From Fragilariopsis cylindrus CCMP1102 (lineage: Eukaryota; Bacillariophyta; Bacillariophyceae; Bacillariales; Bacillariaceae): 64,000 bases of DNA. Shown in pieces: positions 8,795-35,277 of this stretch. Each line of letters begins with the position of its first letter. Position 1 is the first letter of the stretch. Location of the stretch: assembly GCA_900095095.1 (NCBI GenBank), contig FMBT01000321.1, forward strand, positions 1 to 64,000, given 5' to 3'. The translations under genes and the position numbers were made by a program. The notes under the pieces are model-generated. The model did not search any database. It was given only the letters and a program-made list of their open reading frames with translations, and was not told the origin of the DNA.

Positions 8795-10663
8795 GTGATC
8801 AATGATGATGACAGTAATGCCTCCGATATTGATTTCAAAATGGATGAAGAATATCGAGAGGAACTTAAAAAAGAACTAAAGCTGGAAGCAAAAGACAAGA
8901 CTGTTACCGAATCAGATCCTGATTCAAGACAATTTGGTGGTGATGACCCTGACTCGCAAATCGACTTCTTCCAGAATCCAATACAGCAACACAACAGGGA
9001 CACTCTTAATGAAAATGAAGATGAACCTATTATCCTTGACAGTCGAACCCGATCTGGCATGAATCTCGCTAACTCAACATCAAAGCAGGAGTGTGGGAAG
9101 GATAAGAAGAAGAAGAAGAGAAGAATCATCGTTGAAGATGATACTAACTTAATTGAAGATGATCTTGACGATGATGATATGATGCAATCCAACATAGCAT
9201 CCGAAGATGACATTATTACTAATGATTCATCTGAAGAAGAAGTAGAAGAACCTTCCATACCTCATGAACTTGAATCTGACCTGGGTGAATATTGGTCCCT
9301 AGCACATTCCACACAAGCTTACGTCCTTAGCACCATCACCTCATATAGCCATATAGAGGCATCGAAATCAACTCCACAGTATGGTTTCAATAGGGGGTTA
9401 AAGGAATTTGGCGCAATGGGATATGAAGCAACTATGAAGGAGCTTGATGACAACCTCCTAGGAATGGGAGCAGTGAAGATGTTACTACCATCAGAAGCAA
9501 GCAGTTCAATACGATTCGAAGCCCTAAACTATCTTATGTTCTTGAAAAGAAAAAGATGTGGGAAGGTTAAAGCAAGAGGATGTGCAGATGGGAGACCCCA
9601 ACGTGAATACATATCAAAAGATGAATCCAGCTCACCAACTGTATCTATATATGCTCTAATGACATCCTGCCTAATGGATGCTATTGAAGGCAGGAAGGTT
9701 GCTACCTGTGATATACCAGGCGCTTTCCTACAGGCTGACTACCCAGCTGAGCGTGACTGTTACCTCAAGTTCGAACGAACAATGGTGACAATGATATGTG
9801 CCATTGATCCTAAATACAAGCAAAATATAGTGGAGAGGAATGGAAAAGAATATGTATATGCCAAACTGACCAAGGCTGTGTATGGTACACTCCTTGGAGC
9901 CATCCTATTCTACAAGAAGCTCAGTAAGCAATTGATTGAATGGGGGTATGAACCAAACTGCTATGATAGATGTACCTTCAACAAGATGATCGAAGGGAAC
10001 CAATGCACTATCCAATTTCATGTGGACGATCTGAAAATATCGCACTTGAAACAGTCTGTAATAGAGTCAGTACTTAATGATGTAAACAAAGAATTTGGTA
10101 CCATCAAGAAGCCATTATCAGCTACCACTGGTGATATACATGACTACCTCGGCATAACCATTGACTATAGTGAAAAGAACAAAGTTAAGTTCACTATGTA
10201 TGACTATCTAGAAGACATACTGGCCGAGATGCCGAGCGATATGAATGGAACAGCTCCCACACCAGCTAGTGATAATCTATTTGATGTGGATGAGGATTCA
10301 GAACTATTGAATGAAAAAGAAGCAGATTTCTTCCACCGATCCACAGCTCGGTTGTTGTTTGCTGCCAAGAGGGCAAGACCAGATCTCCAAGTGGCTGTTG
10401 CTTACCTCTGCACCCGAGTCAAAGCTCCTACACGCTCTGACTATCGAAAGTTGACCAGAGTGATGAAGTATCTAAGGTTAAGTATATCCATTCCTCTCGT
10501 GTTGGGATGGGATGGAAGTGGAAAACTGTTGTGGTCAGTAGACGCATCATTTGCTATACACGAGGACATGAGAAGCCATACTGGTGCCGTATTGACAATG
10601 GGGCCAGGGAGCCTTAATGCCAATGTCCCTGAAGCAAAAGATCAACACAAAGAGCTCCACTGA
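8795..10663 (+). CDS. pol: Copia-1 reverse transcriptase and start of RNase H (622 aa)
   Basis: This continues the frame of 6545-8737 after the TAA; the true polypeptide probably includes 8738-8794 as well. An acidic linker (residues 1-150, with a Lys run KDKKKKKRR) leads into the RVT_2 reverse transcriptase domain. RT motifs include TCDIPGAFLQADYP (first catalytic Asp) and QFHVDDLKIS at about residue 410, where HVDD replaces the common YVDD. RNase H starts with LLWSVDASFAIHEDMRSH near the end. The frame is lost near 10622, where one extra A seems to lie between GCC and ATG. The rest of RNase H is in the overlapping frame at 10617-11093. Confidence 0.85.
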   Translation: MINDDDSNASDIDFKMDEEYREELKKELKLEAKDKTVTESDPDSRQFGGDDPDSQIDFFQNPIQQHNRDTLNENEDEPIILDSRTRSGMNLANSTSKQECGKDKKKKKRRIIVEDDTNLIEDDLDDDDMMQSNIASEDDIITNDSSEEEVEEPSIPHELESDLGEYWSLAHSTQAYVLSTITSYSHIEASKSTPQYGFNRGLKEFGAMGYEATMKELDDNLLGMGAVKMLLPSEASSSIRFEALNYLMFLKRKRCGKVKARGCADGRPQREYISKDESSSPTVSIYALMTSCLMDAIEGRKVATCDIPGAFLQADYPAERDCYLKFERTMVTMICAIDPKYKQNIVERNGKEYVYAKLTKAVYGTLLGAILFYKKLSKQLIEWGYEPNCYDRCTFNKMIEGNQCTIQFHVDDLKISHLKQSVIESVLNDVNKEFGTIKKPLSATTGDIHDYLGITIDYSEKNKVKFTMYDYLEDILAEMPSDMNGTAPTPASDNLFDVDEDSELLNEKEADFFHRSTARLLFAAKRARPDLQVAVAYLCTRVKAPTRSDYRKLTRVMKYLRLSISIPLVLGWDGSGKLLWSVDASFAIHEDMRSHTGAVLTMGPGSLNANVPEAKDQHKELH

Positions 10664-11093
10664 AGCAGAATTGGTTGGAGTTGATGATGCCATGAATTTT
10701 ATTGAATGGATTCAATTATTCGTTGGTCAACAACTCAAGTCAATCAATCCGGATTCAATCCTTAATAAGATTGGTTCGGATGTTGTCATTCAACAAGACA
10801 ACACAAGCACAATACAGCTCGAGAACAATGGACAAGCGTCTAGTACCAAGAGAACTAGGCACATAAATATCAGATACTTCTATGTGACAAGCAAGATCAA
10901 AGAAGGAAGCATTCGTGTGATATATCATCCCACGAAGGAAATGGTATCGGATTATTTGACTAAGCCATTGCAGGGGAGTCTGTTTAGAACTCATCGTAAC
11001 TCCCTCATGGGGCACGATGAGGATTCGATAGCACTTTGTAATAAAGAATACAATGATGCTAAGGCAGCTGCTGCCAAGGACCTTTCTAATTGA
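10617..11093 (+). CDS. pol: Copia-1 RNase H C-terminal part, frame-shifted (158 aa)
   Basis: It holds the remaining RNase H motifs of a Ty1/Copia Pol: KSSTEAELVGVDDAMNFIEW, the Asp in VIQQDNTSTIQLENNG, and RTRHINIRYFYV followed by the family's SDYLTKPLQG tail. Its first codons overlap the end of the preceding frame by 47 bp. The motif order shows that both frames once formed one domain. Confidence 0.82.
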   Translation: MPMSLKQKINTKSSTEAELVGVDDAMNFIEWIQLFVGQQLKSINPDSILNKIGSDVVIQQDNTSTIQLENNGQASSTKRTRHINIRYFYVTSKIKEGSIRVIYHPTKEMVSDYLTKPLQGSLFRTHRNSLMGHDEDSIALCNKEYNDAKAAAAKDLSN

Positions 11094-11156
11094 ATGGAAG
11101 GGACATATTCATTACATTCGCATCGATGCTAACACATCAATTCAAATGTAGGAGTG

Positions 11157-11541
11157 TGTTGGGGATTCAATTATTACGAGTCCCGTGTATGTAAGGTTTT
11201 CACAACAGTCATTGTGTCATGAACGTCATGACATCTGTGCATGTTGTTTCCTTACAATAAATATATATATGCTGCGCATTATCGTGTGGTTGACAATTGA
11301 AGAGAAAAGATGTGTCGTATTTACATTGCGTTAATGTAAGCACCTCCATCGGTACCTCGGATTGTCAATCAATGTTGGTCATTATTTATTATAGAACTTA
11401 TGCAATAGGTAAATAATAACAACAAGTTAATAAGCTAGCCATACATAGTATTCAAACCTATATATCATCCTAGTATCTTCAAGCATTACGTAATAAGCAA
11501 CATACCAATAACCACGGCGTTGCGATTACTGTATTTCAACA
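11157..11541 (+). repeat. Copia-1 right LTR (385 bp)
   Basis: Direct repeat of 3733-4117 with a single visible difference (T at 11353). It is followed by CTGGG (11542-11546). A purine tract TAGGAGTG lies immediately upstream. Confidence 0.96.
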
Positions 11542-11716
11542 CTGGGACTGATTCAGTCTTTAGTCATGAGTAACAACTCGTGATTAAAGTGTTCACGAGT
11601 AACTACCAGTGGCAATAAGCATTACAACGCTAATAGCTCACAATTACATTCTATTGCAATATCAAGTCCTATCTATCTATCTATCCTATACAAATAGTCT
11701 AGAAGTAGGCATGGCA
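11542..11716 (+). repeat. Right piece of the old Gypsy-type LTR hosting Copia-1
   Basis: The stretch ends with AGTAGGCATGGCA, like the LTR of the Gypsy element (ends TCTAGGGCATGGCA at 53484). It is followed by the same 13-bp palindromic word TGATTTTAAAATC (11717-11729, compare 53485-53497). This marks it as a 5' LTR of a related Gypsy element with only a short piece of internal sequence behind it. Confidence 0.7.
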
Positions 11717-11721
11717 TGATT

Positions 11722-12129
11722 TTAAAATCCGCCAAGCTGTTGAAAGAGCAAACTAAGGTTTGAGCATGAAGGTGCATGTTTCGCTACTAGTATGAAATCG
11801 CTTTCGATAGAAGTGCTTATACTCTTGTTGTTAACGCTAGGATGATAACAATGACTGATCGATATTTTAGGAACCTCACTAGGAATGAAACTTGGTTCGT
11901 CACTAGGATTAAAACTAGGAGCAGAGCTGGGTACACCACTCGGTGAAAGACTTGAAATGGAATTTGGAACAGCACTTGATGAAAGACTTGGAAGAGAACT
12001 TGGTGCAAAGATGTTGCTTGGTTGTTCCTGTGGGGAATTTGTAAGTTTCATCATAGGTAGTGATTCTATTGAATAGGTTCTTCTTCCTGTTCTTCTTCCT
12101 GCTGATAGATTTTCGTGCTCTTTCCTCAT
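11722..12129 (-). pseudogene. Fragment of a Pro-Ser repeat gene
   Basis: The minus strand reads a short array of the same repeat as the large locus upstream (PSSLPSLSSSAVPN, SGVPSSAPSFNPSDEPS) between about 12010 and 11870. Unrelated residues follow, and the frame ends inside the Gypsy leader. The array has no signal peptide or start of its own, and it lies between an LTR and an LTR relic. It looks like a stray piece of a Pro-Ser gene moved or cut off by retrotransposon insertion. It could instead be an extreme 3' exon, but no splice signals support that. Confidence 0.5.
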
Positions 12130-12530
12130 TTCCCCAAAAAGACTACTGCTGTTGTTCTACCAGGCTACTCACCTGTCTTGAACACAAGATCTTCCTTCCA
12201 ACAGATGGTGTCCTTTCTCTAAAAATCTCTACTAATATTGCTATTGCATTATAACGGTTGTTCACACACAAAAGGTTGCTATTAACACACTTGTTTATTT
12301 AGTCTATGATTATTACAATTCATCAACAATAAAAGAGATAGAGATGGTTCGTTTCAAGTACTCTGGTCTTTTCTTGTATTTTGGTATGGCAATAAACAGT
12401 AACTTTGTACACAACGATATTCATAACATCACTTCGCCTAATACATATATATTAGCGGTTCGGCGAACACTTCTCTTATTTGTGTAACGACTTCAACTGG
12501 TCATCAGTAATTAGAATACTACCTGACAAC
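12130..12530 (-). repeat. Diverged LTR relic related to the Copia-4 LTR
   Basis: Read on the minus strand, this stretch matches 52170-52500 in patches. Both have GAACCGCTAAT, GCGAAGTGA, TCTTTTATTGTTGA, and a run around CATAGACTAA and AACAAGTGTGTTAATA, then CCTGGTAGAAC, in the same order and spacing. It is therefore a diverged, inverted copy of the putative Copia-4 5' LTR just downstream of the giant gene's stop codon. No gene is visible in 12130-12596. Confidence 0.6.
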
Positions 12531-12596
12531 ATTTACTTTTACTAACATCAATGGGAACAAATTGTACATCTACATATCAGGAAGTACAGGAGGTTC

Positions 12597-15500
12597 TTAA
12601 GGAGGTGTGACACCGCAGAAGGTATCACAGTAGTCGATGCAGTTGGCAATGATGCAGTTGGCGAAACAGTTACCTGTAATACTTGGACCATCACTAGGTG
12701 CAAAACTTGCACTCAGAATACTTGGACCATCGCTAGGTGCAAAACTTGCACTCAGAATACTTGGACCATCACTAGGTGCAAAACTTGCACTCATAATACT
12801 TGGACCATCACTAGGTGCAAAACTTGCACTCAGAATACTTGGACCATCACTAGGTGCAAAACTTGCACTCAGAATACTTGGACCATCACTAGGTGCGCCA
12901 CTTACAATGGGACTTGGTTCTCCACTGGGGATTAGACTTGGTGCAGAACTTGCTGAGATAGATGGTGATGCGATTGGACCCAGAATACTTGGACCATCAC
13001 TAGGCAAACTGCTAGAAGTCTCACTGGGGATTGAACTTGGTGCTGTACTTGGTGCGCCACTCGGATCAAAACTAGGAGAATTCACTGTAATACTTGGACC
13101 ATCACTAGGTGCAAAACTTGCACTCAGAATACTTGGACCATCACTAGGTGCAAAACTTGCACTCAGAATACTTGGACCGTCACTAGGTGCGCCACTTACA
13201 ATGGGACTTGGTTCTCCACTGGCGATTAGACTTGGTGCAGAACTTGCTGAGATAGATGGTGATGCGATTGGACCCAGAATACTTGGAACATCACTAGGCA
13301 AACTGCTAGGAGTCTCACTGGGGATTGAACTTGGTGCTGTACTTGGTGCGCCACTTGGATCAATACTAGGAGAATTCACTGTAATACTTGGACCATCACT
13401 AGGTGCAAAACTTGCACTCAGAATACTTGGACCATCACTAGGTGAAACACTTGCATCCAGAATACTTGGACCATTACTAGGTGCGCCACTTACAATGGGA
13501 CTTGGATCTCCACGGGGGATTAGACTTGGTGCAGAACTTGCTGAGATAGATGGTGATGCGATTGGACTCAGAATACTTGGACCATCACTAGGCAAACTGC
13601 TAGAAGTCTCACTGGGGATTGAACTTGGTGCTGTACTTGGTGCGCCACTCGGATCAATACTAGGAGAATTCACTGTAATACTTGGACCATCACTAGGTGC
13701 AAAACTTGCACTCAGAATACTTGGACCATCACTAGGTGCAGAACTTGCACTCAGAATACTTGGACCATTACTAGGTGCTCCACTTACAATGGGACTTGGA
13801 TCTCCACGGGGATTAGACTTGGTGCAGAACTTGCTGAGATAGATGGTGATGCGATTGGACTCAGAATACTTGGACCATCACTAGGCAAACTGCTAGAAGT
13901 CTCACTGGGGATTGAACTTGGTGCTGTACTTGGTGCGCCACTAGGATCAAAACTAGGAGAATTCACTGTAATACTTGGACCATCACTAGGTGCAAAACTT
14001 GCACTCAGAATACTTGGACCATCACTAGGTGCAAAACTTGCACTCAGAATACTTGGACCATTACTAGGTGCGCCACTTACAATGGGACTTGGATCTCCAC
14101 TGGGGATTAGACTTGGTGCAGAACTTGCCGAGATAGATGGTGATGTGATTGGACTCAGAATACTTGGACCATCACTAGGCAAACTGCTAGGAGTCTCACT
14201 GGGGATTGAACTTGGTGCTGTACTTGGTGCGCCACTCGGATCAATACTAGGAGAATTCACTGTAATACTTGGACCATCACTAGGTGCAAAACTTGCACTC
14301 AGAATACTTGGACCATCACTAGGTGCAAAACTTGCACTCAGAATACTTGGACCATTACTAGGTGCGCCACTTACAATGGGACTTGGATCTCCACTGGCGA
14401 TTAGACTTGGTGCAGAACTTGCTGAGATAGATGGTGATGCGATTGGACCCAGAATACTTGGACCATCACTAGGCAAACTGCTAGAAGTCTCACTGGGGAT
14501 TGAACTTGGTGCTGTACTTGGTGCGCCACTCGGATCAATACTAGGAGAATTCACTGTAATACTTGGACCATCACTAGGTGCAAAACTTGCACTCAGAATA
14601 CTTGGACCATCACTAGGTGCAAACTTGCACTCAGAATACTTGGACCATTACTAGGTGCGCCACTTACAATGGGACTTGGATCTCCACTGGCGATTAGACT
14701 TGGTGCAGAACTTGCTGAGATAGATGGTGATGCGATTGGACTCAGAATACTTGGACCATCACTAGGCAAACTGCTAGAAGTCTCACTGGGGATTGAACTT
14801 GGTGCTGTACTTGGTGCGCCACTAGGATCAAAACTAGGAGAATTCACTGTAATACTTGGACCATCACTAGGTGCAAAACTTGCACTCAGAATACTTGGAC
14901 CATCACTAGGTGCAAAACTTGCACTCAGAATACTTGGACCATTACTAGGTGCGCCACTTACAATGGGACTTGGATCTCCACTGGCGATTAGACTTGGTGC
15001 AGAACTTGCTGAGATAGATGGTGATGCGATTGGACTCAGAATACTTGGACCATCACTAGGCAAACTGCTAGAAGTCTCACTGGGGATTGAACTTGGTGCG
15101 CCCACTAGGATCAATACTAGGAGAATTCACTGTAATACTTGGACCATCACTAGGTGCAAAACTTGCACTCAGAATACTTGGACCATCACTAGGTGAAAAC
15201 TTGCATCCAGAATACTTGGACCATTACTAGGTGCGCCACTTACAATGGGACTTGGATCTCCACTGGCGATTAGACTTGGTGCAGAACTTGCTGAGATAGA
15301 TGGTGATGCGATTGGACTCAGAATACTTGGACCATCACTAGGCAAACTGCTAGAAGTCTCACTGGGGATTGAACTTGGTGCTGTACTTGGTGCGCCACTC
15401 GGATCAATACTAGGAGAATTCACTGTAATACTTGGACCATCACTAGGTGCAAAACTTGCACTCAGAATACTTGGACCATCACTAGGTGCGCCACTTACAA

Positions 15501-15654
15501 TGGGACTTGGATCTCCACTGGCGATTAGACTTGGTGCAGAACTTGCTGAGATAGATGGTGATGCGATTGGACTCAGAATACTTGGACCATCACTAGGCAA
15601 ACTGCTAGAAGTCTCACTGGGGATTGAACTTGGTGCTGTACTTGGTGCGCCACT
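12597..15654 (-). CDS. Giant Pro-Ser protein, C-terminal array and Cys-rich tail
   Basis: About ten copies of a roughly 292-bp higher-order unit, each reading SASFAPSDGPSIL (13 aa) once to several times, then TVNSPS.DPSGAPSTAPSS and SPIASPSISASSAPS. Single-base frame changes fall near 15195, 15101, 14620 and 13808; each is a one-base difference from the matching position in neighbouring units. The Pro-Ser frame always resumes. The last coding segment (13673-12597) ends in a unique tail, NCFANCIIANCIDYCDTFC, with six Cys before TAA. A disulfide-rich C terminus fits a secreted protein that is cross-linked outside the cell. Confidence 0.65.
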
Positions 15655-16380
15655 GGATCAATACTAGGAGAATTCACTGTAATACTTGGACCATCACTAG
15701 GTGCAAAACTTGCACTCAGAATACTTGGACCATCACTAGGTGCAAAACTTGCACTCAGAATACTTGGACCATTACTAGGTGCGCCACTTACAATGGGACT
15801 TGGATCTCCACTGGCGATTAGACTTGGTGCAGAACTTGCTGAGATAGATGGTGATGCGATTGGACTCAGAATACTTGGACCATCACTAGGCAAACTGCTA
15901 GAAGTCTCACTGGGGATTGAACTTGGTGCTGTACTTGGTGCGCCACTCGGATCAAAACTAGGAGAATTCACTGTAATACTTGGACCATCACTAGGTGCAA
16001 AACTTGCACTCAGAATACTTGGACCATCACTAGGTGCAAAACTTGCACTCAGAATACTTGGACCATTACTAGGTGCGCCACTTACAATGGGACTTGGATC
16101 TCCACTGGCGATTAGACTTGGTGCAGAACTTGCTGAGATAGATGGTGATGCGATTGGACCCAGAATACTTGGACCATCACTAGGCAAACTGCTAGGAGTC
16201 TCACTGGGGATTGAACTTGGTGCTGTACTTGGTGCGCCACTCGGATCAAAACTAGGAGAATTCACTGTAAAACTTGGACCATCACTAGGTGCAAAACTTG
16301 CACTCAGAATACTTGGACCATCACTAGGTGCAAAACTTGCACTCAGAATACTTGGACCGTCACTAGGTGCGCCACTTACA
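12660..16380 (-). repeat. Higher-order tandem array, about 292-bp period
   Basis: The word GAATTCACTGTAA recurs at about 13080, 13375, 13670, 13960, 14255, 14550, 14840, 15125, 15418, 15668, 15966 and 16258, giving twelve units of roughly 290 bp (one shortened near 15101). Each unit holds one to several 39-bp subunits (CTTGGACCATCACTAGGTGC and continuation) plus a variable connector. Further units occur at about 17880, 21285, 21580 and 21830. Units differ by few substitutions, indicating recent expansion or homogenisation. Confidence 0.9.
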
Positions 16381-18764
16381 ATGGAACTTGGTGCGCGACT
16401 GGGATCAAAACTAGGAGAAGAGCTGGGAACACTACTTGGTGTAAGACTTGGAATGGAACTTGAAACACCACTTGGTGTAAGACTTGGCCCAAAACTAGGC
16501 AAAACACTAGGAACCTCACTTGGGACGGAACTTGGTGCGCCACTTGAGTCAAAACTAGGAGAAGAGCTGGGAACACCACTTAATGTAAGACTTGGAATGG
16601 AACTTGGAACATCACTTGGTGTAAGACTTGGCCCAAAACTTGGCAAACCACTAGGAACCTCACTTGGGATGGAACTTGGTGTGCCACTCGGATCAAAACT
16701 AGGAGAAGAGCTGGGTGCACTACTTGGTGAAAGACTTGGAATGGAACTTGGAAGAGTACTTGGTGTAAGACTTGGCCCAAAACTAGGCAAAATACTAGGA
16801 ACCTCACTTGGGATGGAACTTGGTGCGCCACTCGGATCAAAACTAGGAGCAGCGCTAGGTGCACCACTTGGTTTAAGACTTGGAATGGAACTTGGAACAG
16901 CACTTGGTGAAAGACTTGGAAGGGAACTTGGTGAAATGCTAATGCTTGGTTCTGCAGTTGCAGTAGGTACAGAACTAGGGATAGCACTGGTGCTGGGTGC
17001 ATTACTTAAGCTGGGTACATTACTTGGCAAACTGCTAGGAGTCTCACTTGGGATTGAACTTGGTGCGCCACTCGGATCAAGACTAGGAGAAGAGCTGGGA
17101 AGACCACTTGGTGTAACACTTGGAATGGAACTTGGAACACCACTTGGTGTCAGACTTGGGCCAAAACTAGGCAAACCACTAGGAACCTCACTTGGGATGG
17201 AACTTGGTGTAAGACTTGGCCCAAAACTAGGCAAAATACTAGGAACCTCACTTGGGATGGAACTTGGTGTAAGACTTGGCCCAAAACTAGGAAGTAAACT
17301 TGGAACACCACTTGGTGAAAGACTTGGAATGGAACTTGGAACAGCACTTGGTGTAAGACTTGGAATGGAACTTGGAACACCACTCGGTGTAAGACTTGGC
17401 CCAAAACTAGGCAAAACACTAGGAACCTCACTTGGGATGGAACTTGGTGCCCTGTTAGGTGCAAAACTTGCACTCAGAATACTTGGACCATCACTAGGTG
17501 AGCCACTTACAATTGGACTTGGTTCTCCACTGGCGATTAGACTTGGTGCAGAACTTGCTGAGATAGATGGTGATGCGATTGGACTCAGAATACTTGGACC
17601 ATCACTAGGCAAACTGCTAGAAGTCTCACTCAGAATACTTGGACCTTCACTAGGTGCAAAACTTGCACTCAGAATACTTGGACCATCACTAGGAGCGCCA
17701 CTTACAATGGGACTTGGATCTCCACTGGCAATTAGACTTGGTGCAGAACTTGCTGAGATAGATGGTGATGCGATTGGACTCAGAATACTTGGACCATCAC
17801 TAGGCAAACTGCTAGAAGTCTCACTAGGGATTGAACTTGGTGCTGCACTTGGTGCGCCACTCGGATCAAAACTAGGAGAATTCACTGTCATACTTGGACC
17901 ATCACTAGGTGCAAAACTTGCACTCAGAATACTTGGACCATCACTAGGTGCAAAACTTGCACTCAGAATACTTGGACCGTCACTAGGTGCGCCACTTACA
18001 ATGGAACTTGGTGCGCGACTGGGATCAAAACTAGGAGAAGAGCTGGGAACACTACTTGGTGTAAGACTTGGAATGGAACTTGAAACACCACTTGGTGTAA
18101 GACTTGGCCCAAAACTAGGCAAAACACTAGGAACCTCACTTGGGACGGAACTTGGTGCGCCACTTGAGTCAAAACTAGGAGAAGAGCTGGGAACACCACT
18201 TAATGTAAGACTTGGAATGGAACTTGGAACATCACTTGGTGTAAGACTTGGCCCAAAACTAGGCAAAGCACTAGGAACCTCACTTGGATTGGAACTTGGT
18301 GTGTCACTCGGATCAAAACTAGGAGAAGAGCTGGGAACACCACTTGGTGTAAGACTTGGAATGGAACTTGGAACAGCACTTGGTGTAAGACTTGGAATGG
18401 AACTTGGAACACCACTTGGTGTAAGACTTGGCCCAAAACTAGGCAAAGCACTAGGAACCTCACTTGGGATGGAACTAGGTGCGCCACTTGGATCAAAACT
18501 AGGAGCAGAGCTGGGTGCACCACTTGGTGTAAGACTTGGAATGAAACTTGGAACAGCACTTGGTGAAAGGCTTGGAATGGAACTTGGTGCAATGCTAATA
18601 CTTGGTTTTGCAGTTGCAGTAGGTACAGAACTAGGGACAGCACTGGTGCTGGGCGCATTACTTAAGCTAGGTACATTACTTGGCAAACTGCTAGGAGTCT
18701 CACTGGGAATTGAACTTGGTGCTGTACTTGGTGCGCCACTCGGATCAGAACTTGGTGTTAGACT
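15573..18764 (-). CDS. Giant Pro-Ser protein, second array, first part (about 1,037 aa open)
   Basis: This is an uninterrupted Pro-Ser frame that follows directly on the domain A' exon after the one-base change near 18765. It alternates two repeat styles: units around SGVPSSIPSLTPSAVPSS, and units around SASFAPSDGPSIL with SPIASPSISASSAPSLI. It contains no Cys and almost no Lys or aromatic residues apart from Phe. The frame is lost near 15655, where CACTGG replaces CACTCGG or CACTTGG. The antisense strand is also open here (LGxxLG frames), a by-product of the repeat codons. Confidence 0.7.
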   Translation of the reverse strand, partial: SLTPSSDPSGAPSTAPSSIPSETPSSLPSNVPSLSNAPSTSAVPSSVPTATAKPSISIAPSSIPSLSPSAVPSFIPSLTPSGAPSSAPSFDPSGAPSSIPSEVPSALPSFGPSLTPSGVPSSIPSLTPSAVPSSIPSLTPSGVPSSSPSFDPSDTPSSNPSEVPSALPSFGPSLTPSDVPSSIPSLTLSGVPSSSPSFDSSGAPSSVPSEVPSVLPSFGPSLTPSGVSSSIPSLTPSSVPSSSPSFDPSRAPSSIVSGAPSDGPSILSASFAPSDGPSILSASFAPSDGPSMTVNSPSFDPSGAPSAAPSSIPSETSSSLPSDGPSILSPIASPSISASSAPSLIASGDPSPIVSGAPSDGPSILSASFAPSEGPSILSETSSSLPSDGPSILSPIASPSISASSAPSLIASGEPSPIVSGSPSDGPSILSASFAPNRAPSSIPSEVPSVLPSFGPSLTPSGVPSSIPSLTPSAVPSSIPSLSPSGVPSLLPSFGPSLTPSSIPSEVPSILPSFGPSLTPSSIPSEVPSGLPSFGPSLTPSGVPSSIPSVTPSGLPSSSPSLDPSGAPSSIPSETPSSLPSNVPSLSNAPSTSAIPSSVPTATAEPSISISPSSLPSLSPSAVPSSIPSLKPSGAPSAAPSFDPSGAPSSIPSEVPSILPSFGPSLTPSTLPSSIPSLSPSSAPSSSPSFDPSGTPSSIPSEVPSGLPSFGPSLTPSDVPSSIPSLTLSGVPSSSPSFDSSGAPSSVPSEVPSVLPSFGPSLTPSGVSSSIPSLTPSSVPSSSPSFDPSRAPSSIVSGAPSDGPSILSASFAPSDGPSILSASFAPSDGPSFTVNSPSFDPSGAPSTAPSSIPSETPSSLPSDGPSILGPIASPSISASSAPSLIASGDPSPIVSGAPSNGPSILSASFAPSDGPSILSASFAPSDGPSITVNSPSFDPSGAPSTAPSSIPSETSSSLPSDGPSILSPIASPSISASSAPSLIASGDPSPIVSGAPSNGPSILSASFAPSDGPSILSASFAPSDGPSITVNSPSIDPVAHQVQHQVQSPVRLLAVCLVMVQVF

Positions 18765-21700
18765 GGCCTTGAGCTTGGAACAGCACTGGGTAAACGACTT
18801 GGCTCAGAACTTGGTGTAAGACTTGGCCTTGAGCTTGGAACAGCACTTGGTGAACGACTTGGTTTAGAACTTGGTGTAAGACTGGGCCTTGAGCTTGGAA
18901 CACTACTGGGTGAACGACTTGGCTCAGAACTGGGTGTAAGACTGGGCCTTGAGCTTGGAACAGCACTGGGTGAACGGCTTGGTTCAGAACTTGGTGTAAG
19001 ACTGGGCCTCGAACTTGGAACAACACTGGGTGAACGACTTGGCTCAGAACTTGGTGTAAGACTGGGCCTCGAACTTGGAACAACACTGGGTGAACGACTT
19101 GGCTCAGAACTTGGTGTAAGACTGGGCCTCGAACTTGGAACAGCACTGGGTGAATGACTTGGCTCAACACTTGGATTCGAACTTGGTGCAATTGATACGC
19201 TTGGACCTGAACTTGGTTCAGAACTAGGCTCTTCACTAGGAGGCAAAATTACCGTAGCTTCTATCCCTGAAGTATCCTTTAAAACTGTGGAATAAGTGTC
19301 TACCAAGATTGCGTTTTCATTTTCTGTTGCTGCTAATGCAGTGTTAAAGCCTGTTGAAGGTGAAGCAGTGAAGCTACATAGTACAGAATAACAATTAGAA
19401 TTTGTTGTACCAGTTTCTGCTACAATATCATCACAGGTTGTCTCTGTTGCAGTACATTCAGTAAGAATTTCTTTAGCAAGGCGTCTGCCTGCAGGTGAGT
19501 TTGTTGAGAGACCAGCAATTGCTTTTGATGTATCAGTAGCACCTATAAGAACAAAGAACAAGCGAAAATTGGTTAAAAATAGTTAATGATGAAAAAAAAG
19601 ACAGTGTTTGGGGGGAAAAGTAAAAGGTTTTGGCTTACCTTGTGCAACTTCCGCAGAGGTAACAGTCGAACCTATAGGAACAAAGAACAAGTGAAATTGG
19701 TTAGAAATAGATGATGATGGAAAAAAAAGACAGTGTTTGGGGGGGAAAGTAAAGGGTTTTGGCTTACCTTTTGCAGCAACCACTGCTCCATAAAAACTGA
19801 CAGGTGTGATAGTTGGAACATTTGAGGGCATCGAACTTGGTTCAAGACTTGGAGCAACACTTGGCAATGAACTTGGTGTGAGACTGGGACTAGAACTGGG
19901 CACATTACTTGGAAGAGAGGAAGGTTCCAAACTTGGTGAATGACTTGGCATAAAGCTGGGTCTCAAACTAGGTAAACCACTCGGATCAAGTGAAGGAGGA
20001 GAAGATGGAGACACGCTTGGAACATCACTTGGTGCAGAACTTGGTGATTGACTAGGCTTAAGACTTGGACCAAAACTAGGCAAACCACTAGGAACCTCAC
20101 TTGGGATCGAACTTGGTGTGCCACTCGGATCTAAACTAGGAGAAGAGCTGGGAACACCACTTGGTGTAAGACTTGGCCCAAAACTAGGCAAACCACTAGG
20201 AGCCTCACTTGGGATGGAACTTGGTGCATTACTTGGATCAAAACTAGGAGCAGCGCTAGGTGCACCACTTGGTTTAAGACTTGGAATGGAACTTGGAACA
20301 TCACTAGGTGAAAAACTTGGAAGGGAACTTGGTGAAATGCTAATGCTTGGTTCTGCAGTTGCAGTAGGTACAGAACTAGGAATAGCACTGGTGCTGGGTG
20401 CATTACTTAAGCTAGGTACATTACTTGGCAAACTGCTAGGAGTCTCACTTGGGATTGAACTTGGTGCACCACTCGGATCAAGACTAGGAGAAGAGCTGGG
20501 AAGACCACTTGGTGTAACACTTGGAATGGAACTTGGAACACCACTTGGTGTCAGACTTGGGCCAAAACTAGGCAAACCACTAGGAACCTCACTTGGGATG
20601 GAACTTGGTGTAAGACTTGGCCCAAAACTAGGCAAAATACTAGGAACCTCACTTGGGATGGAACTTGGTGTAAGACTTGGCCCAAAACTAGGAAGTGAAC
20701 TTGGAACACCACTTGGTGAAAGACTTGGAATAGAACTTGGAACAGCACTTGGTGTAAGACTTGGAATGGAACTTGGAACACCACTTGGTGTAAGACTTGG
20801 CCCAAAACTAGGCAAAACACTAGGAACCTCACTTGGGATGGAACTTGGTGCGCTGTTAGGTGCAAAACTTGCACTCAGAATACTTGGACCATCACTAGGT
20901 GAGCCACTTACAATTGGACTTGGTTCTCCACTGGCGATTAGACTTGGTGCAGAACTTGCTGAGATAGATGGTGATGCGATTGGACTCAGAATACTTGGAC
21001 CATCACTAGGCAAACTGCTAGAAGTATCACTCAGAATACTTGGACCATCACTAGGTGCAAAACTTGCACTCAGAATACTTGGACCATCACTAGGTGCGCC
21101 ACTTACAATGGGACTTGGATCTCCACTGGGGATTAGACTTGGTGCAGAACTTGCTGAGATAGATGGTGATGCGATTGGACTCAGAATACTTGGACCATCA
21201 CTAGGCAAACTGCTAGGAGTCTCACTGGGGGTTGAACTTGGTGCTGTACTTGGTGCGCCACTCGGATCAATACTAGGAGAATTCACTGTAATACTTGGAC
21301 CATCACTAGGTGCAAAACTTGCACTCAGAATACTTGGACCATCACTAGGTGCAAAACTTGCACTCAGAATACTTGGACCATTACTAGGTGCGCCACTTAC
21401 AGAGGGACTTGGTTCTTCACTGGGGATTAGACTTGGTGCAGAACTTGCCGAGATAGATGGTGATGTGATTGGACTCAGAATACTTGGACCATCACTAGGC
21501 AAACTGCTAGGAGTCTCACTGGGGATTGAACTTGGTGCTGTACTTGGTGCGCCACTCGGATCAATACTAGGAGAATTCACTGTAATACTTGGACCATCAC
21601 TAGGTGCAAAACTTGCACTCAGAATACTTGGACCGTCACTAGGTGCGCCACTTACAATGGGACTTGGTTCTCCACTGGGGATTAGACTTGGTGCAGAACT

Positions 21701-22240
21701 TGCTGAGATAGATGGTGATGTGATTGGACTCAGAATACTTGGACCATCACTAGGCAAACTGCTAGGAGTCTCACTGGGGATTGAACTTGGTGCTGTACTT
21801 GGTGCGCCACTCGGATCAAAACTAGGAGAATTCACTGTAATACTTGGACCATCACTAGGTGCAAAACTTGCACTCAGAATACTTGGACCATCACTAGGTG
21901 CAAAACTTGCACTCAGAATACTTGGACCGTCACTAGGTGCGCCACTTACAATGAACTTGGTGCGTGACTGGGATCAAAACTAGGAGAAGAGCTTGGAAAA
22001 CCACTTGGTAAAAGACTTGGAATTGAACTTGGAACAGCACTTGATGTAAGATGTGGAATGGAACTTGGAACACCACTTGGTGTAAGACTTGGCCCAAAAC
22101 TAGGCAGAACACTAGGAACCTCACTTGGGATAGAACTTGGTGTGCCACTCGGATCAAAACTAGGAGAAGAGCTTGGAACACCACTTGGTGTAAGACTTGG
22201 AATGGAACTTGGAACATCACTTGGTGTTAGACTTGGCCCA
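18758..22240 (-). CDS. Giant Pro-Ser protein, middle part with domain A' and two tandem introns
   Basis: This continues the array after the frame change at 22240; a further single-base loss lies near 21953. The array ends with SMPSNVPTITP, like the segment before domain A. The coding part then runs through three exons: to 19768, 19671-19639 (only 33 bp) and from 19542. Joined, they give domain A', whose first 19 residues align without gaps to domain A (GAVVAAKGSTVTSAEVAQG versus FAILFALDPSVTQAEIEEG). It has four conserved-looking Cys and ends VILPPSEEPSS. A regular array follows (SRSPSVVPSSRPSLTPSSEP, 20-residue period, 19160-18780). The frame breaks near 18765, where GG replaces GGG. Confidence 0.72.
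19543..19638 (-). other. Intron 3 of the giant Pro-Ser gene (96 bp)
   Basis: Minus strand GTAAGCCAAAACC ... TTCTTATAG, phase 1, at the position equivalent to intron 1 in the paralogous domain A (after ...EVAQ-G versus ...EIEE-G). Confidence 0.85.
19672..19767 (-). other. Intron 2 of the giant Pro-Ser gene (96 bp)
   Basis: Minus strand GTAAGCCAAAACCC ... TTCCTATAG, phase 1. It is near-identical to intron 3 (same 96-bp length, shared GTAAGCCAAAACC, CCAAACACTGTC and TTGTTCTTTGTTC), from which it is separated by a 33-bp exon. It has no counterpart in domain A. Confidence 0.85.
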
Positions 22241-25200
22241 AAAACTTGGCAAACCACTAGGAACCTCACTTGGGATGGAACTTGGTGTGCCACTCGGATC
22301 AAAACTAGGAGAAGAGCTGGGTGCACTACTTGGTGAAAGACTTGGAATGGAACTTGGAAGAGTACTTGGTGTAAGACTTGGCCCAAAACTAGGCAAAATA
22401 CTAGGAACCTCACTTGGGATGGAACTTGGTGCGCCACTCGGATCAAAACTAGGAGCAGCGCTAGGTGCACCACTTGGTTTAAGACTTGGAATGAAACTTG
22501 GAACAGCACTTGGTGAAAGACTTGGAAGGGAACTTGGTGAAATGCTAATGCTTGGTTCTGCAGTTGCAGTAGGTACAGAACTAGGGATAGCACTGGTGCT
22601 GGGTGCATTACTTAAGCTAGGTACATTACTTGGCAAACTGCTAGGAGTCTCACTGGGAATTGAACTTGGTGCTGTACTTGGTGCGCTACTTGGATCAAAA
22701 CTAGGAGAAGAGCTTGGAACACCACTTGGTGTAAGACTTGGAATGGAACTTGGAACACCACTTGGTGTAAGACTTGGCCCAAAACTAGGCAAAACACTAG
22801 GAGCCTCACTTGGATTGGAACTTGGTGTGCCACTTGGATCAAAACTAGGAGAAGAGCTGGGAACACCACTTGGTGTAAGACTTGGAATAGAACTTGGAAC
22901 AGCACTGGGTGTAAGACTTGGCCCAAAACTAGGCAAAACACTAGGAACCTCACTTGGGACGGAACTTGGTGCGCCACTTGAGTCAAAACTAGGAGAAGAG
23001 CTGGGAACACCACTTAATGTAAGACTTGGAATGGAACTTGGAACATCACTTGGTGTAAAACTTGGCCCAAAACTAGGCAAACCACTAGGAACCTCACTTG
23101 GATTGGAACTTGGTGCGCCACTAGGATCAAAACTAGGAGAAGAGCTGGGAACACCACTTGGTGTAAGACTTGGAATGGAACTTGGAACACCACTTGGTGT
23201 AAGACTTGGAATGGAACTTGGAACACCACTTGGTGTAAGACTTGGCCCAAAACTAGGCAAACCACTAGGAACCTCACTTGGGATGGAACTTGGTGTGTCA
23301 CTCGGATCAAAACTAGGAGAAGAGCTTGGAACACCACTTGGTGAAAAACTTGGAATGGAACTTGGAACATCACTCGGTGAAAGGCTTGGAAGGGAACTTG
23401 GTGCAATGCTAATACTTGGTTTTGCAGTTGCAGTAGGTACAGAACTAGGGACAGCACTGGTGCTGGGTGCATTACTTATGCTAGGTACATTACTTGGCAA
23501 ACTGCTAGGAGTCTCACTGGGAATTGAACTTGGTGCTGTACTTGGTGTGCCACTTGGATCAAAACTAGGAGAAGAGCTGGGAACACCACTTGGTGTAAGA
23601 CTTGGAATGGAACTTGGAACACCACTTGGTGTAAGACTTGGCCCAAAACTAGGCAAAACACTAGGAGCCTCACTTGGATTGGAACTTGGTGTGCCACTTG
23701 GATCAAAACTAGGAGAAGAGCTGGGAACACCACTTGGTGTAAGACTTGGAATAGAACTTGGAACACCACTTGGTGTAAGACTTGGCCCAAAACTAGGCAA
23801 AACACTAGGAACCTCACTTCGGACGGAACTTGGTGCGCCACTTAAGTCAAAACTAGGAGAAGAGCTGGGAACACCACTTAATGTAAGACTTGGAATGGAA
23901 CTTGGAACATCACTTGGTGTAAAACTTGGCCCAAAACTAGGCAAACCACTAGGAACCTCACTTGGATTGGAACTTGGTGCGCCACTCGGATCAAAACTAG
24001 GAGAAGAGCTGGGAACACCACTTGGTGTATGACTTGGAATGGAACTTGGAACAGCACTTGGTGTAAGACTTGGAATGGAACTTGGAACACCACTTGGTGT
24101 AAGACTTGGCCCAAAACTAGGCAAACCACTAGGAACCTCACTTGGGATGGAACTAGGTGCGCTACTTGGATCAAAACTAGGAGCAGAGCTGGGTGCACCA
24201 CTTGGTGTAAGACTTGGAATGAAACTTGGAACAGCACTTGGTGAAAGGCTTGGAAGGGAACTTGGTGCAATGCTAATACTTGGTTTTGCAGTTGCAGTAG
24301 GTACAGAACTAGGGACAGCACTGGTGCTGGGTGCATTACTTAAGCTAGGTACATTACTTGGCAAACTGCTAGGAGTCTCACTGGGAATTGAACTTGGTGC
24401 TGTACTTGGTGTGCCACTCGGATCAAAACTAGGAGAAGAGCTGGGAACACCACTTGGTGTAAGACTTGGAACGGAACTTGGAACACCACTTGGTGTAAGA
24501 CTTGGCCCAAAACTAGGCAAACCACTAGGAACCCCAGTTGGATTGGAACTTGGTGTGCCACTCGGATCTAAACTAGGAGAAGAGCTGGGAACACCACTTG
24601 GTGTAAGACTTGGAATAGAACTTGGAACAGCACTTGGTGTAAAACTTGGCCCAAAGCTAGGCAAACCACTAGGAACCTCACTTGGGATGGAACTTGGTGC
24701 GCTACTCAGATCAAAACTAGGAGAAGAGCTGGGAACACCACTTGGTGTAAGACTTGGAATGGAACTTGGAACACCACTCGGCTTAAGACTTGGCCCAAAA
24801 CTAGGCAAAACAGTAGGAACCTCTTTTGGGATGGAACTTGGTGCGCCACTCAGATCAAAACTAGGAGAAGAGCTTGGAACACCACTTGGTGAAAGACTTG
24901 GAATGAAACTTGGAACACCACTTGGTGTAAGACTTGGAATAGAACTTGGAACACCACTTGATGTAAGACTTGGCCCAAAACTAGGCAAACCACTAGGAAC
25001 CGCACTTGGATTGGAACTTGGTGTGCCACTCGGATCTAAACTAGGAGAAGAGTTGGGAACACCACTTGGTGTAAGACTTGGAATAGAACTTGGAACACCA
25101 CTTGGTGTAAAACTTGGCCCAAAACTAGACAAAGCACTAGGAACATCACTTGGGATGGAACTTGGTGCGCCACTCGGATCCAAACTAGGAGAAGAGCTTG

Positions 25201-28067
25201 GAACAGCACTTGGTGTAAGACTTGGAATGAAACTTGGAACACCACTTGGTGTAAGACTTGGCCCAAAACTAGGCAAACCACTAGGAACCTCACTTGGTGC
25301 TCCACTTAGATCAGAACTAGGAGAAGAGCTGGAAACTGAAGTAGTGGCTACAGTAGGTGCAGTAGTAGGTGTTACAGTAGGTGCTGAAGTAGGTGCTACA
25401 GTAGGTGCTGGAGTAGGTGTTGCGGTAGGTGCTGGAGTAGGTGTTGTGGTAGGTGATGCAGTGGGCAATTTAGGCGATGCAGTAGGTGTCGTGTTAGGCG
25501 ATGCAGTAGGTGTCGTGTTAGGTTTATTACTTGGAACAAGACTAGGAGCAGAAATACTTGGAACAAGACTAGGAGCAGAAGTAGGTTCATTACTTGGTGA
25601 TTGACTAGGCTTAAGGCTCGGACCAGCACTAAGTGCTCCACTTGGTACATTACTAGGCATCTCAGTAGGGATGAAAGTTGGTGCGCCACTTGGTGCACCA
25701 CTTGGTACACTACTTGGTGCGCCACTTGGAATGGAACTTGGTACACCACTTGGAGTAAAACTTGGATTTGAACTTGGCGCAATTGATATACTTGGACCTG
25801 AACTTGGTACAGAACTTGGCTGCTCACTGGGAGGCAAAATTGCTTTACCATCTATCTGTGCCACTTTCTTTAACTTTGCAACATATTCTCCTGAAATGAC
25901 TGCCTCTTCAGTTTTCTCTGCTGCTTCTGCAGTGTCAAAGCCTGAACAAGCAAAAGCAGTGATGGTACATGGTACATTCCAACATATCAAATTAGCTGTA
26001 TCTACACCCTCAACAACTGAACAAGGTATTTTTGTTCCATCACATTCGACAGCAGGAGGTGGACAAGTTGGGGTTAGGGTAGTAGATAGAAATTGTTGGC
26101 GTCCACTTGATGCTCCGGCTATCTCTGGTGGAAAATCAGCCAATGCTTTTGCTGTCTTAAGAGCACCTAGAAAAAGACAAAAGAAGTTAAAAATTTGTTA
26201 AAAATTGTTGATGCTAAAAAAGACAATGTTCTGGGGAAAAAAAAGAGGGTTTTCGCTTACCTTCTTCAATTTCAGCCTGAGTAACAGATGGGTCTAAGGC
26301 AAATAGAATTGCAAAAGTAGTGGAAGGGGTCTCAGTCGGAACATTTGAGGGCATTGTACTTGGGGAAAGACTTGGAGCAGAACTTGGAACAATACTAGGT
26401 TTGCTACTTGGATCCTGACTAGGAGCAGAACTAGGTACATCACTTGGTGCACCACTCGGAATGAAACTTGGAACAGCACTCGGTGAAAGGCTTGGAAAAG
26501 AACTTGGTGCAATGCTAATGCTTGGTTCTGCAGTTGCGGTGGGTCCAGAACTAGGGACAGCACTTGTGCTAGGTGCAGAGCTTAAGCTGGGTACATTACT
26601 AGGCAAACCACTTGGTTCGAAACTTGGAACAGTACTCGGTTTGTTACTTGGATCCTGACTAGGAGCAGAACTAGGTACATCACTTGGTGCGACACTTGGA
26701 TCAAAACTAGGAGAAGAGCTGGGTACACCACTTGGTGCGACACTCGGAATTGAACTTGGAATAGAACTAGCCAAACCACTAGGAATTTCACTAGGAATCT
26801 CATTTGGGGTGGAACTTGGTGCAGAGCTTGAACTTGGTGCGCCATTCGGAATGGAACTTGGAAAAGAACTAGGCAAAACACCAGGAGTCTCACTTGGAAT
26901 GAAACTTGGTGAGCCATTCTGATCAAAACTAGGAGGAGAGCTTGTTACACCACTTGGTGTAGGACTTAGAATTACACTGGGGATGAAACTTGGCGCAGAA
27001 CTTGTTGAGATAGCTGGAGATGCGCTAGGACTTGAAGTTGGACTCAATGTTGGCGAAGAGGTGGGAGTTGCTGTTGGTGAATCAGTCTGTCTACACTTAT
27101 TCCTGCATGTTGCTGGACAAAAGAACTTAAGTTTCTTTTTGTTGGTACCAGGTTGGACCTTTTTACATCTCTTGTTGGGTTTTTCTGCAACGTATGAATC
27201 ACATGTAAATTCTGGATTGTCTTTAAATCGGAATGAATCAGAATTTGTACAGTCACCACGTCTTACTGTTGGTGGTGATGTTGGTGATGATGCTGTTAAT
27301 GATGTTGGTGATGATGTTGGTGAATCAGTTCCTTTACATTTTTTCCTGCATGTACCAGGACAAAAGTCTTTAACTTTCTTTCCACCAGAACCATGGACTT
27401 TCTTTCTACATCTCTTCCTTGGTTTTTTTGCAACATATGAATCACATGTTTGGGTTGCATCACCTTTAAATCGGAATGAATCCAAATTTTCACAACCACC
27501 ACGTTTTACTGTTGGTGATGATGTTGGTGAATCAGTTTCTTTACATTTTTTCTTGCAGGTTGATGGACAAAAGAATTTTAATTTTTTATCAGTACCGGGT
27601 TGATCCTTTCTACATCTCTTCCTTGGTTTTTTTGCAACGTATAGATCACATGTAAATCTTGGATTGTCTTTAAATCGGAATGAATCCGAATTTGTACATG
27701 CACCACGTTTTACTGTTGGCGATGATGTTGGTGAATCCGTTTCTGTACATTTTTTCTTACAGGTTGCTGGACAAAAGAACTTAAGTTTGATGTCGGTACC
27801 AAGTTGTTTCTTCCTACATCTCTTGTTTGGTTTCTTTGCAACAAATGAATCACATGTTTTGGTTTCATCGCCTTCAAATCGGAATGAATCCGAATTTTCA
27901 CATTTACCACGAAGTTCACGCTGTGCACCAAATAAACGAGCAGCAGCTTTAGTCTCTACCGTAGCTGCTGTAGTAGCTACCGCAGGACCTGCCGTAGGTA
28001 CTGCATTAGCTGCGTAAACGAGGATGGGGACAAGGAAGGCGCTGATATACGCAAAAGAAAGCTTCAT
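22217..28067 (-). CDS. Giant Pro-Ser protein, N-terminal part: signal peptide, Cys modules, domain A, first array
   Basis: Start ATG at 28067-28065, chosen because it begins a clear signal peptide (MKLSFAYISAFLVPILVYA, cleavage likely after ANA); an upstream in-frame ATG adds 32 residues that spoil it. Residues about 55-310 are four modules with cysteines in the order C-x15-C-x11-C...C-x3-C-x3-C, rich in Lys/Arg, separated by ETDSPTSSPT linkers; the spacing recalls ShK-like folds. Exon 1 ends at 26261 and exon 2 begins at 26166, in phase. Exon 2 opens with domain A (about 130 aa, six or so Cys, ending KAILPPSE), then a Pro-Ser array of about 1,200 residues with units such as SGVPSSIPSLTP. The frame breaks at an A5 run (22240-22244) where other units have A4. 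Confidence 0.78.
26167..26260 (-). other. Intron 1 of the giant Pro-Ser gene (94 bp)
   Basis: Minus strand GTAAGCGAAA ... TTTTTCTAG, phase 1, joining GAA GAA G to GT GCT CTT. It lies within domain A and resembles introns 2 and 3 in length and in its start (GTAAGC.AAAACC). Confidence 0.85.
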
Positions 28068-28404
28068 AACGACAACTTCTTTTGTAATGTTATAGGAACA
28101 CAGAAGATGGGAAGATAAGGAAGAATTGAATTGAACAATAATGTGAGAAAAATATTTGTACAATATAATTGTTGATCTTTACAAAATATTGGTGCCTTAT
28201 TGATCTTGTAAGGGTACTATTATTATATTCCATTTGTTGTTGTTGCTGTTGAAGACCCACACATTTCCTAGCCATGACGATCATTATTATTTGACTTGAA
28301 AGCAACATCACCTTATCCGTCGACGACGACGACGATGATAGTCAAAGTAGGCAAAGGACGTCCTTCGTTGTACAGTACTGTACTGGATCAAATCCTTTGC
28401 GTCA

Positions 28405-28590
28405 CTTTTCTTGTCGACGTATCATTCGTATGTTCGACCTTTGTCGTATCATAGCATACGCTCTTGTCTTGATAACAATAGAGAACTCCTTGTTGCATAA
28501 TGGCAATAGTATCTCCGATTATTGTCGTTTCATTCGTATGTTCGACCATTGTCGTATCATACCATACGTTCTTGTCTTGACAATCAAGAT
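28405..28590. repeat. Imperfect direct duplication
   Basis: CATTCGTATGTTCGACC followed by TTGTCGTATCATA and CATACG.TCTTGTCTTGA occurs twice, near 28424 and 28529, about 106 bp apart, with a few substitutions. Confidence 0.7.
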
Positions 28591-29221
28591 TCTTTGTTAC
28601 AGTTAAAATTGCAGTGTTGATGCGATCATAAATGCCACCAACTTCCGTCTCCCCATCCTTGCTCGATTCATCGGATAGATCATTCTTGTCTTCCTTTGAA
28701 CTATTTATATTTATGTCTTTGATCGTATCCATATCAATCATTGCCATATTTCTGTCTATTCGATACGCCGATCGAAATAACAATATCAACTCCCCATCGA
28801 TCGTAGTAGCAGAGTAACCGTATTGATCATTAACGTCTTGATAGTGAGCTACTGATCCTGATTATAGTAGTAATACTATTGATGATGGAGGACGTCGTGC
28901 AGTACCCATACCCGAAGTTGATGTAACAGTAATAGTGTGATACTTTTCTTGATAGTTGCGTAATAGTATCGTCATTGTCGTGAATATCTTGATGGAGAAC
29001 TACTTGTAATGGTCCTGATTGTAGTAGTAATAAAATTATTGATATTATTGTGCCAACCACTCGATATGCCAATCGAAATAACGACATCGCTTGGGAATGG
29101 AGCCCAAGGACTTAAATCGAATACCATACATATTATTATAAAACGACTTTGTCTTGACTTGTGAATCTAATTGAATTGAGCCATGATTGTTTTATTATTG
29201 TTATGTTGTCTTGATGTGATC

Positions 29222-29306
29222 ACCTTTTCTGATGAGGATGATCACGATGATCACGATGATCACGATGATGACGACGATGATGACGATGATGATAATGACG
29301 AGAAAA
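29222..29306. repeat. Short tandem repeat (GATGATCAC and GATGAC)n
   Basis: GATGATCACGATGATCACGA repeats three times and grades into GATGACGACGATGATGACGA. A second microsatellite of ACAACACAAC and ACAGCACAGC units follows at 29343-29380. Confidence 0.8.
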
Positions 29307-29659
29307 GCTTCGATACAATCGCAGGACATACAACGTTGTAACAACACAACACAACACAGCACAGCACAGCACAGCACAAAATAAAACAGTACTCACATTT
29401 TTAGGACTTTATTGTATGTTAATATTGAGTCTCCTTTTCTTTTCGAAACTGAACTGATTCAATAAAGTGACTATTTCATTTCAAGATTACGCGAGATTAC
29501 GCGATTAATTAATTTTAAGATTACGCGGATCAAAAAGCGATATTTTTCAAATAACTGCTCTCTCTTCTATTATTATCTACCGTATTTCCAGATTTCCTCT
29601 TGAATTTTGATGCTGCTGACTGGAAATTTACCGACGCTAGCCCAGTGAAGCGCCATGCA

Positions 29660-30510
29660 TTATTCTAATCTTCTATTTTACGACGGTAATGCTTTAGACA
29701 GGCTTTGGACAAAATCCTAGTGAAGCGCGGTATTAGCGCGATGAAATACTTAATCTTCTATTTTACGATGGTACAAAATTCTATGTGTTCCATGCTTTAG
29801 ACAGGCTTTGAACAAAAGCCAGTGAAGCGCGATATGAGCGCGATGAAATACTTAATCTTCTATTTTACGATGGTACAAAAGTTCCGGTTCAAGGTTGTTT
29901 TTCTAAATAAGCGCAATGTAATATAGGCTGGAGCGCGATGAAATGTGACGATATTTTCTCTTGTACGATGGTACAAAAGTCCCAGTAAGGTTGGTTTTCT
30001 AAATAAGCGCAATGTAATAGGCTGGAGCGCGATGAAATACTTAATCTTCTATTTTACGATGGTACAAAAGTTCCATACCTCCCGTAGTTGAAGTGGCAGG
30101 AGATGACTAGAGGAGAATCAAAACCGCGACGGTTTAATGCTAAAGCGCATTGTTATTATTATTCTACCAAACTTCAATCATTACTTAGTACTATAATCTT
30201 CTATTTTACGATGGTACAAAAGTTCCATACCTCCCGTAGTTGAAGGGGTAGGAGATGATTAGAGGAGAATCAATGCGCGACGGTTTAATGCTAAAGCGCA
30301 TTGTTATTATTATTCTACTAAACTTCAATCATTACTTAGTATTCTAATCTTCTATTTTACGATGGTACAAAACTCTTTGTGTTTCCTATCCATTCCATGC
30401 CTCCCTTGTAGAAACGCGAGAACATATCTAAAGCGCATTGTTATTATTATTCTACTAAACTTCAATCATTACTTAGTGTTCTAATCTTCTATTTTACTTT
30501 AAGTCAGATA
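29660..30510. repeat. Dispersed-tandem array of about 100-170-bp units
   Basis: The word AATCTTCTATTTTACGAYGG occurs at about 29677, 29750, 29855, 30043, 30190 and 30347, usually followed by TACAAAA. Accompanying words also repeat: GAAGCGCG..GAGCGCGATGAA, TCTAAATAAGCGCAATGTAA, CATACCTCCCGTAGTTGAAG, and GCTAAAGCGCATTGTTATTA. Copies are diverged and partly truncated. No open reading frame spans them. Confidence 0.8.
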
Positions 30511-35275: not shown

Positions 35276-35277
35276 TA

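Follow-up and report, generated by a model that had tools for sequence, protein, structure and literature searches.

A minus-strand locus of the diatom Fragilariopsis cylindrus probably encodes a very large secreted Pro-Ser protein belonging to a genome-wide family

The window analysed here is the first 64,000 bases (1-64000) of contig C303 (GenBank FMBT01000321.1) in the assembly of Fragilariopsis cylindrus CCMP1102, and the genome searched comprises 67.9 Mb in 818 contigs. On the minus strand of the window, from 28067 to 12597, three-frame translation shows in turn a signal peptide, four six-Cys modules, a Pro-Ser stretch, a first copy of a globular domain (A1), Pro-Ser array 1, a second copy of that domain (A2) and Pro-Ser array 2. 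A preliminary description of this DNA had proposed one locus for a secreted Pro-Ser protein of about 5,000 residues, running from a single signal peptide to a Cys-rich tail.

The signal peptide with its start codon (MKLSFAYISAFLVPILVYAANA, 28002-28067) is supported by hydropathy and by conservation of the start in paralogs. Met 28067 has the highest best 13-residue hydropathy among the seven Met residues of the Pro-Ser frames (2.35; runner-up, 1.58), and contigs C395, C809, C279, C580, C589 and C340 carry a near-identical start. In a motif scan of ten stretches (the window and nine others), a signal peptide was present in 7 of 10 and absent from C252, C624 and C411. The proposal of a secreted product thus gains support from this N terminus. 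Upstream, the DNA resembles C395 as far as 28164, beyond which no match was found.

Module search and alignment then place the four six-Cys modules of the preliminary description at 27905-27747, 27698-27543, 27494-27336 and 27251-27093; modules 2-4 are 67-72% identical to the first, with all six Cys invariant. By translation, a Pro-Ser linker and the first exon of A1 follow (26261-27077), separated by a 94-bp intron (26167-26260, GTAAGC...CTAG; same place and similar sequence in C395) from the main exon of A1 (25817-26167), which is 93-95% identical to C809. Array 1 (19768-25816), delimited by translation, repeat-copy alignment and tetrad count, leads into A2, in which two 96-bp GT-AG introns (intron 1, 19672-19767; intron 2, 19543-19638; 91% identical to each other) flank a translated mini-exon of 33 nt (19639-19671). 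The main exon of A2 (19226-19543) is 94-96% identical to C395. A1 (26167-25817) and A2 (19543-19226) are 37% identical, in keeping with the two domain copies described earlier. Array 2 (12675-19225) contains a 294-bp unit and a 39-bp (13-residue) repeat. Long open reading frames (ORFs) also cross the arrays on the opposite strand, up to 1,008 amino acids (15793-18819, plus strand); the signal peptide, Cys modules, A domains and introns all lie on the minus strand.

The A domains thus hold three GT-AG introns (26260-26167, 19767-19672 and 19638-19543). A1 has an intron at the second A2 place alone, and an A2-like copy on C617 has one intron within the stretch viewed; A2 intron 1 may have arisen by duplication of intron 2. 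A genome search with intron 2 returned ten matches, all beside domain A copies (two each on C303, C395 and C809; one each on C617, C411, C307 and C146). An introner or other mobile intron was rejected, since all ten adjoin domain A copies and shared descent suffices.

Composition reinforces the Pro-Ser architecture. Placing limits at frame changes and following the Pro-Ser-bearing frame gave eleven in-frame segments totalling 5,042 residues (29.9% Ser, 20.0% Pro, 883 PS dipeptides), with four N-x-S/T sites, seven Met and no stop ahead of the last codon. Within the arrays, Pro is followed by Ser or Thr in 852 of 903 cases, and successive P[S/T] pairs are spaced by exactly 4 residues in 658 of 842; Lys and Arg are scarce there. 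Tetrads number 659, while 200 shuffles of the same composition average 27.5, so that their register, present in both arrays, is not due to chance. The 39-mer, sought genome-wide with up to 3 mismatches, gave 34 matches, all 34 on C303 and none on other contigs.

A shorter paralog on C395 bears on whether this is one gene. It has a signal peptide of the same kind starting at 86963, three six-Cys modules, and A1 and A2 with introns at window-equivalent places; Pro-Ser and Pro-Thr sequence then continues until the stop at 78950, which makes about 8 kb in all. One slip was seen in it, in A1; stops of the start frame ahead of 78950 fall within or just after the A1 intron until that slip (84995-84815), and from the A1 exon onwards the only one lies within the second A2 intron (82472). 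We considered whether C395 and C809 might be alleles of the window locus and rejected this: 28,165-40,000 and 9,000-12,590 of the window are unmatched in 15 kb of C395 and 10 kb of C809, save for Pro-Ser pieces, and with these flanks unmatched we treat them as paralogs of the window locus.

Because C395 runs through both A1 and A2, and because Met 28067 alone among the seven is signal-like, A2 of the window is most likely internal, and the sequence most likely represents one gene rather than two, as first proposed. Two or more genes, the first running from 28067 into array 1 and the second starting near A2, would account for the two slips between A1 and A2 and for Met 19831, which precedes a mildly hydrophobic stretch (13-residue mean 1.58). 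Yet Met 26354 before A1 shares that context (MPSNVPT...) and is internal, and C395 reads from A1 to A2 in one frame; we consider such a division very improbable.

The 3' end departs from the preliminary description, which had closed the protein with a Cys-rich tail (12597-12674). The GNCFANC... reading is in frame with the array end. The same DNA aligns locally to the Pro-Thr array of C395 with a score of 45 (best of 100 shuffles, 27), and that array is open in its Pro-Thr frame and Cys-rich when read off frame; in the Pro-Thr frame the window tail reads TVSPTASLPTASTTVIPSAV. The 3' flank (12252-12579) is 93.6% identical to the 3' flank of C279 and C580, whose match to the window begins at 12579, where both end in Pro/Thr/Ser sequence and stops, without such a tail. 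Alternatively, a 78-bp GT-AG intron (12673-12596) would join the array in frame to EPPVLPDM and a stop. The Cys-rich tail is therefore probably not real, and would stem from either one more slip or a missed intron; of the three readings (slip, intron, plain Cys), plain Cys is the least likely.

The flank just past the gene end, 12252-12579, overlaps a multi-copy repeat. Scoring 40 of 151 candidates gave at least 46 genome matches to it, counting the window's own copy and small pieces; several lie on contigs without a six-Cys match among those listed. About 590 bases past the gene end, on the same strand, a short Pro-Ser fragment (11868-12008) is 94% identical to pieces of C589 and C340 and is perhaps a remnant of another family member.

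The array frames change at eight single-base slips that do not stem from introns, near 22244 and 21945 in array 1 and near 18763, 15655, 15196, 15103, 14621 and 13811 in array 2. Hence the continuous Pro-Ser reading proposed earlier stands as a layout, but not as a single ORF in the locus as assembled, which is interrupted by three introns and eight slips. All slips except that near 18763 appear as one-base gaps against window copies that are 95.3-99.2% identical, and four of these seven (22244, 21945, 15103 and 14621) alter a homopolymer run. The eighth has GG where the 60-bp unit consensus has GGG, the best copies found there being 81% identical.

A second copy of the C395 paralog, at 134-144 kb of C809, offers a measure of indel noise. 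The two are 97.6% identical over 10,172 columns with 50 mismatches and 134 gap openings, 116 of the gap runs falling in C809 and 18 in C395, and A1 is intact in C809 at the point where C395 slips. C809 differs from C395 mainly by small gaps, so indel noise is present in this assembly, in and outside repeats. Most likely, the eight window slips are residual assembly errors of the same origin as the noise in C809. On balance, we favour a reading in which one minus-strand gene encodes a secreted structural fibre of about 5,000 residues, part of a cell-wall coat or extracellular matrix, with the slips being assembly errors and the Cys tail an artefact.

Several observations weigh against this. The assembled locus does not read in one frame, and the genome yielded no second copy of it by which the slips could be shown to be errors, its 39-bp repeat occurring on C303 alone. 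Nor are the gaps in C809 limited to repeats. Placed on C395, 74 of the 134 fall between 79.0 and 84.0 kb, which covers the arrays and A2, a further 53 between 77.5 and 79.0 kb, for the most part beyond the end of the gene at 78950, and the remaining 7 in other parts; C809 may itself have decayed. Between the window and its paralogs, nonsynonymous divergence (dN) is below synonymous divergence (dS), which speaks for the gene (dN/dS values of 0.025/0.054 for A1, 0.021/0.052 for A2 and 0.19/0.36 for the N-terminal modules), but the A1 and A2 figures are based on few changes, 11 and 9. Across five repeat families 64 changes were counted, 45 of them nonsynonymous and 19 synonymous, so no selection is visible in the repeats, and the absence of nonsense changes there is powerless as a test, with about one expected. 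Structure models were of low confidence (predicted local distance difference test 38.6 for A1, built from two sequences, and 46.9 for the six-Cys module, from four). Finally, the match to OCM3 (OCM presumably for Ochromonas mastigoneme) owes most of its score to composition (33.7 bits, bias 35.3), with nothing beyond the Pro-Ser stretch matched.

Some of these points would suit a decaying giant pseudogene, in which the slips are real and no full-length protein is made. Eight slips fall within about 15 kb of the window locus, whereas C395 shows one over about 8 kb, array changes are mostly amino-acid-altering, and the domain A copies of C252, C279 and C340 contain stops or broken frames, which suggests that loss may be common in the family. 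Against decay, every slip is a single base and four of the seven well-shown ones lie in homopolymer runs, the six-Cys modules are intact, as are both A domains, indel noise is seen elsewhere in the assembly, and no substitution has created a stop in 5,042 codons, a test of little power. We therefore regard a pseudogene as unlikely.

The locus is far from isolated. A1 as query gave 20 matches on 13 contigs (20 candidates, all scored), A2 gave 19 in the genome, and the six-Cys module gave at least 150 matches on at least 48 contigs (150 of 220 candidates scored), some of these contigs being copies of each other. The longest open frame among the six-Cys matches listed is 3,016 residues (C425). 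One A domain was found in C279, two in the window, C395 and C589, and three in C340. The preliminary description knew of no described protein with this exact order, and our literature search of open-licence papers found none naming this architecture; within this genome, by contrast, the layout is not unique but recurs as a family on many contigs. Judging from these comparisons, the window locus probably belongs to a family of secreted Pro-Ser/Pro-Thr tetrad proteins that spans the genome, and is a giant within it. That the source is a diatom, as had been assumed, is supported by genome matches to the silicon transporter family above its curated cut-off (best E 1.1e-226); silicon transporters also occur in a few other silicifying algae. 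Elsewhere in the assembly, C252 (39.5-44.6 kb) and C809 (55.3-60.4 kb) share identical stretches (3,315 and 3,089 columns at 100%), which indicates that some duplicates were left uncollapsed.

Array length varies among paralogs, and the arrays probably grew by unequal exchange. They contain near-identical 294-bp units and larger near-duplicates, 17456-17825 resembling 20857-21226. The exact length in the window is unproven and depends on the assembly. It is possible, if on the unlikely side, that a real gene of this layout is much shorter or longer than assembled, a reading compatible with the single secreted fibre that we favour. Such units and near-duplicates are hard to assemble, the C395 gene spans only about 8 kb, and the identical stretches of C252 and C809 point the same way; on the other hand, the 39-bp repeat is found here alone, which argues that array 2 was not borrowed from another locus, and the order and introns agree with C395.

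Other features of the window lie outside the gene. Downstream of it, identical 300-nt direct repeats 7.4 kb apart (3732-4031 and 11156-11455) are perhaps the long terminal repeats of a recently inserted retroelement. Retroelement ORFs with a GAG-pre-integrase domain and with a reverse transcriptase and RNase H occur at 40800-43937 and 55603-58026, and a protein with three helicase-associated (HA) repeats is encoded at 33416-34831.

If the single-gene reading is right, the protein would enter the secretory pathway through its signal peptide, and its Pro-Ser tetrad arrays (about 4,200 residues) would take on the shape of an extended, polyproline-II-like rod and would probably carry hydroxyl groups and O-glycans. 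The four six-Cys modules and two A domains could then fold into nodes at which, outside the cell, partners are bound or rods become linked to one another by disulfides. An adhesion role is possible, and nothing in the sequence favours adhesion over a wall or coat role. A bolder version, which we hold to be doubtful, is that a single secreted polypeptide of at least 5,000 residues forms one continuous rod, the length of which would serve the cell coat as a tunable tether or ruler. Unequal exchange among 13- and 98-residue units would set this length, and the two A domains, of a type not found in Pfam, would be the nodes. The Pro-Ser part as counted is 4,184 residues, and a polyproline-II helix rises 0.31 nm per residue; fully extended, such a rod would measure about 1.3 micrometres, which approaches the size of a small diatom cell.

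Repetitive wall and surface proteins of diatoms are difficult both to detect by homology and to assemble. In this case the common signal peptide, six-Cys modules and domain A make a subfamily recognisable within one genome, and C395 provides a shorter, nearly intact paralog of the window locus. Genes of this kind will be divided by gene models wherever the frame slips, and what looks like a Cys-rich terminus can arise from reading out of frame.

Comparison with known domains yielded partial likenesses. No Pfam family reached its cut-off with domain A or the six-Cys module; weak matches to DUF7480 (E 0.0002, 21.9 bits against a cut-off of 27), Tannase (E 0.057), DUF7576 (E 0.015) and DUF1644 (E 0.1) were set aside, and five matches from a fold search with the six-Cys model (best E 4.3) were not used. 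The modules resemble ShKT-type domains in their six Cys and in a CPxTCxxxC-like ending, but differ in their last spacing, C-x3-C, and the ShK Pfam profile gave no match in the window proteins scanned (E up to 0.1 and up to 10). Pleuralins with PSCD domains are Pro-, Ser- and Cys-rich diatom wall proteins, and a PSCD structure exists in the PDB. A six-Cys profile search (E up to 1) returned three weak matches, none a PSCD chain, the presence of PSCD in the searched set being unconfirmed. Diatom adhesive-trail proteins with vWD/GDPH have been described (PMC7335047); VWD had no match in the window proteins scanned, nor in the whole genome, where the negative is uninformative because control genomes were equally silent.

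The tetrad register itself has counterparts as well. The solved chain of OCM3 (PDB 9ufe) carries PSGQ-type tetrads in the same PSxx register as the window arrays; A1 with its linker matched it in Pro-Ser alone, and the N-terminal region had no match (E up to 0.1), so mastigoneme homology outside the Pro-rich stretch was not found. Seven of the eight matches in that structure-chain search were Plasmodium CSP chains, set aside as low complexity. In the hydroxyproline-rich, extracellular mastigoneme proteins MST1 and MST3 of Chlamydomonas (PMC11015965), Pro/Ser stretches form hyperglycosylated polyproline-II helices with O-galactosylated Ser, which supplies a working model for how a Pro-Ser array can act. 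These proteins differ from the window protein in coming from a green alga, in a far higher proline density and, for MST3, in a PKD2-like membrane domain.

Among diatoms, silicon-responsive gene products of Thalassiosira pseudonana, including TpSIL1, form a class of PT-repeat proteins with many X-P-T/S-X tetrapeptide repeats (Brembu et al. 2017, PMC5501833). As far as the excerpt of that paper extends, neither a size of 5,000 residues nor six-Cys modules nor domain A is described in this class, while the X-P-T/S-X motif fits both the PS of the window arrays and the PT of the C395 tail. The window protein has the numerous P-T/S tetrapeptide repeats that define the class and, by hydropathy and its conserved start, the N-terminal signal peptide that is a common but non-defining trait of its members. 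The rod proposed here leans on the mastigonemes of Chlamydomonas (PMC11015965), on the dihydroxyproline of diatom walls and the PT repeats of silicon-responsive proteins (both PMC5501833), and on the PSxx tetrads of OCM3.

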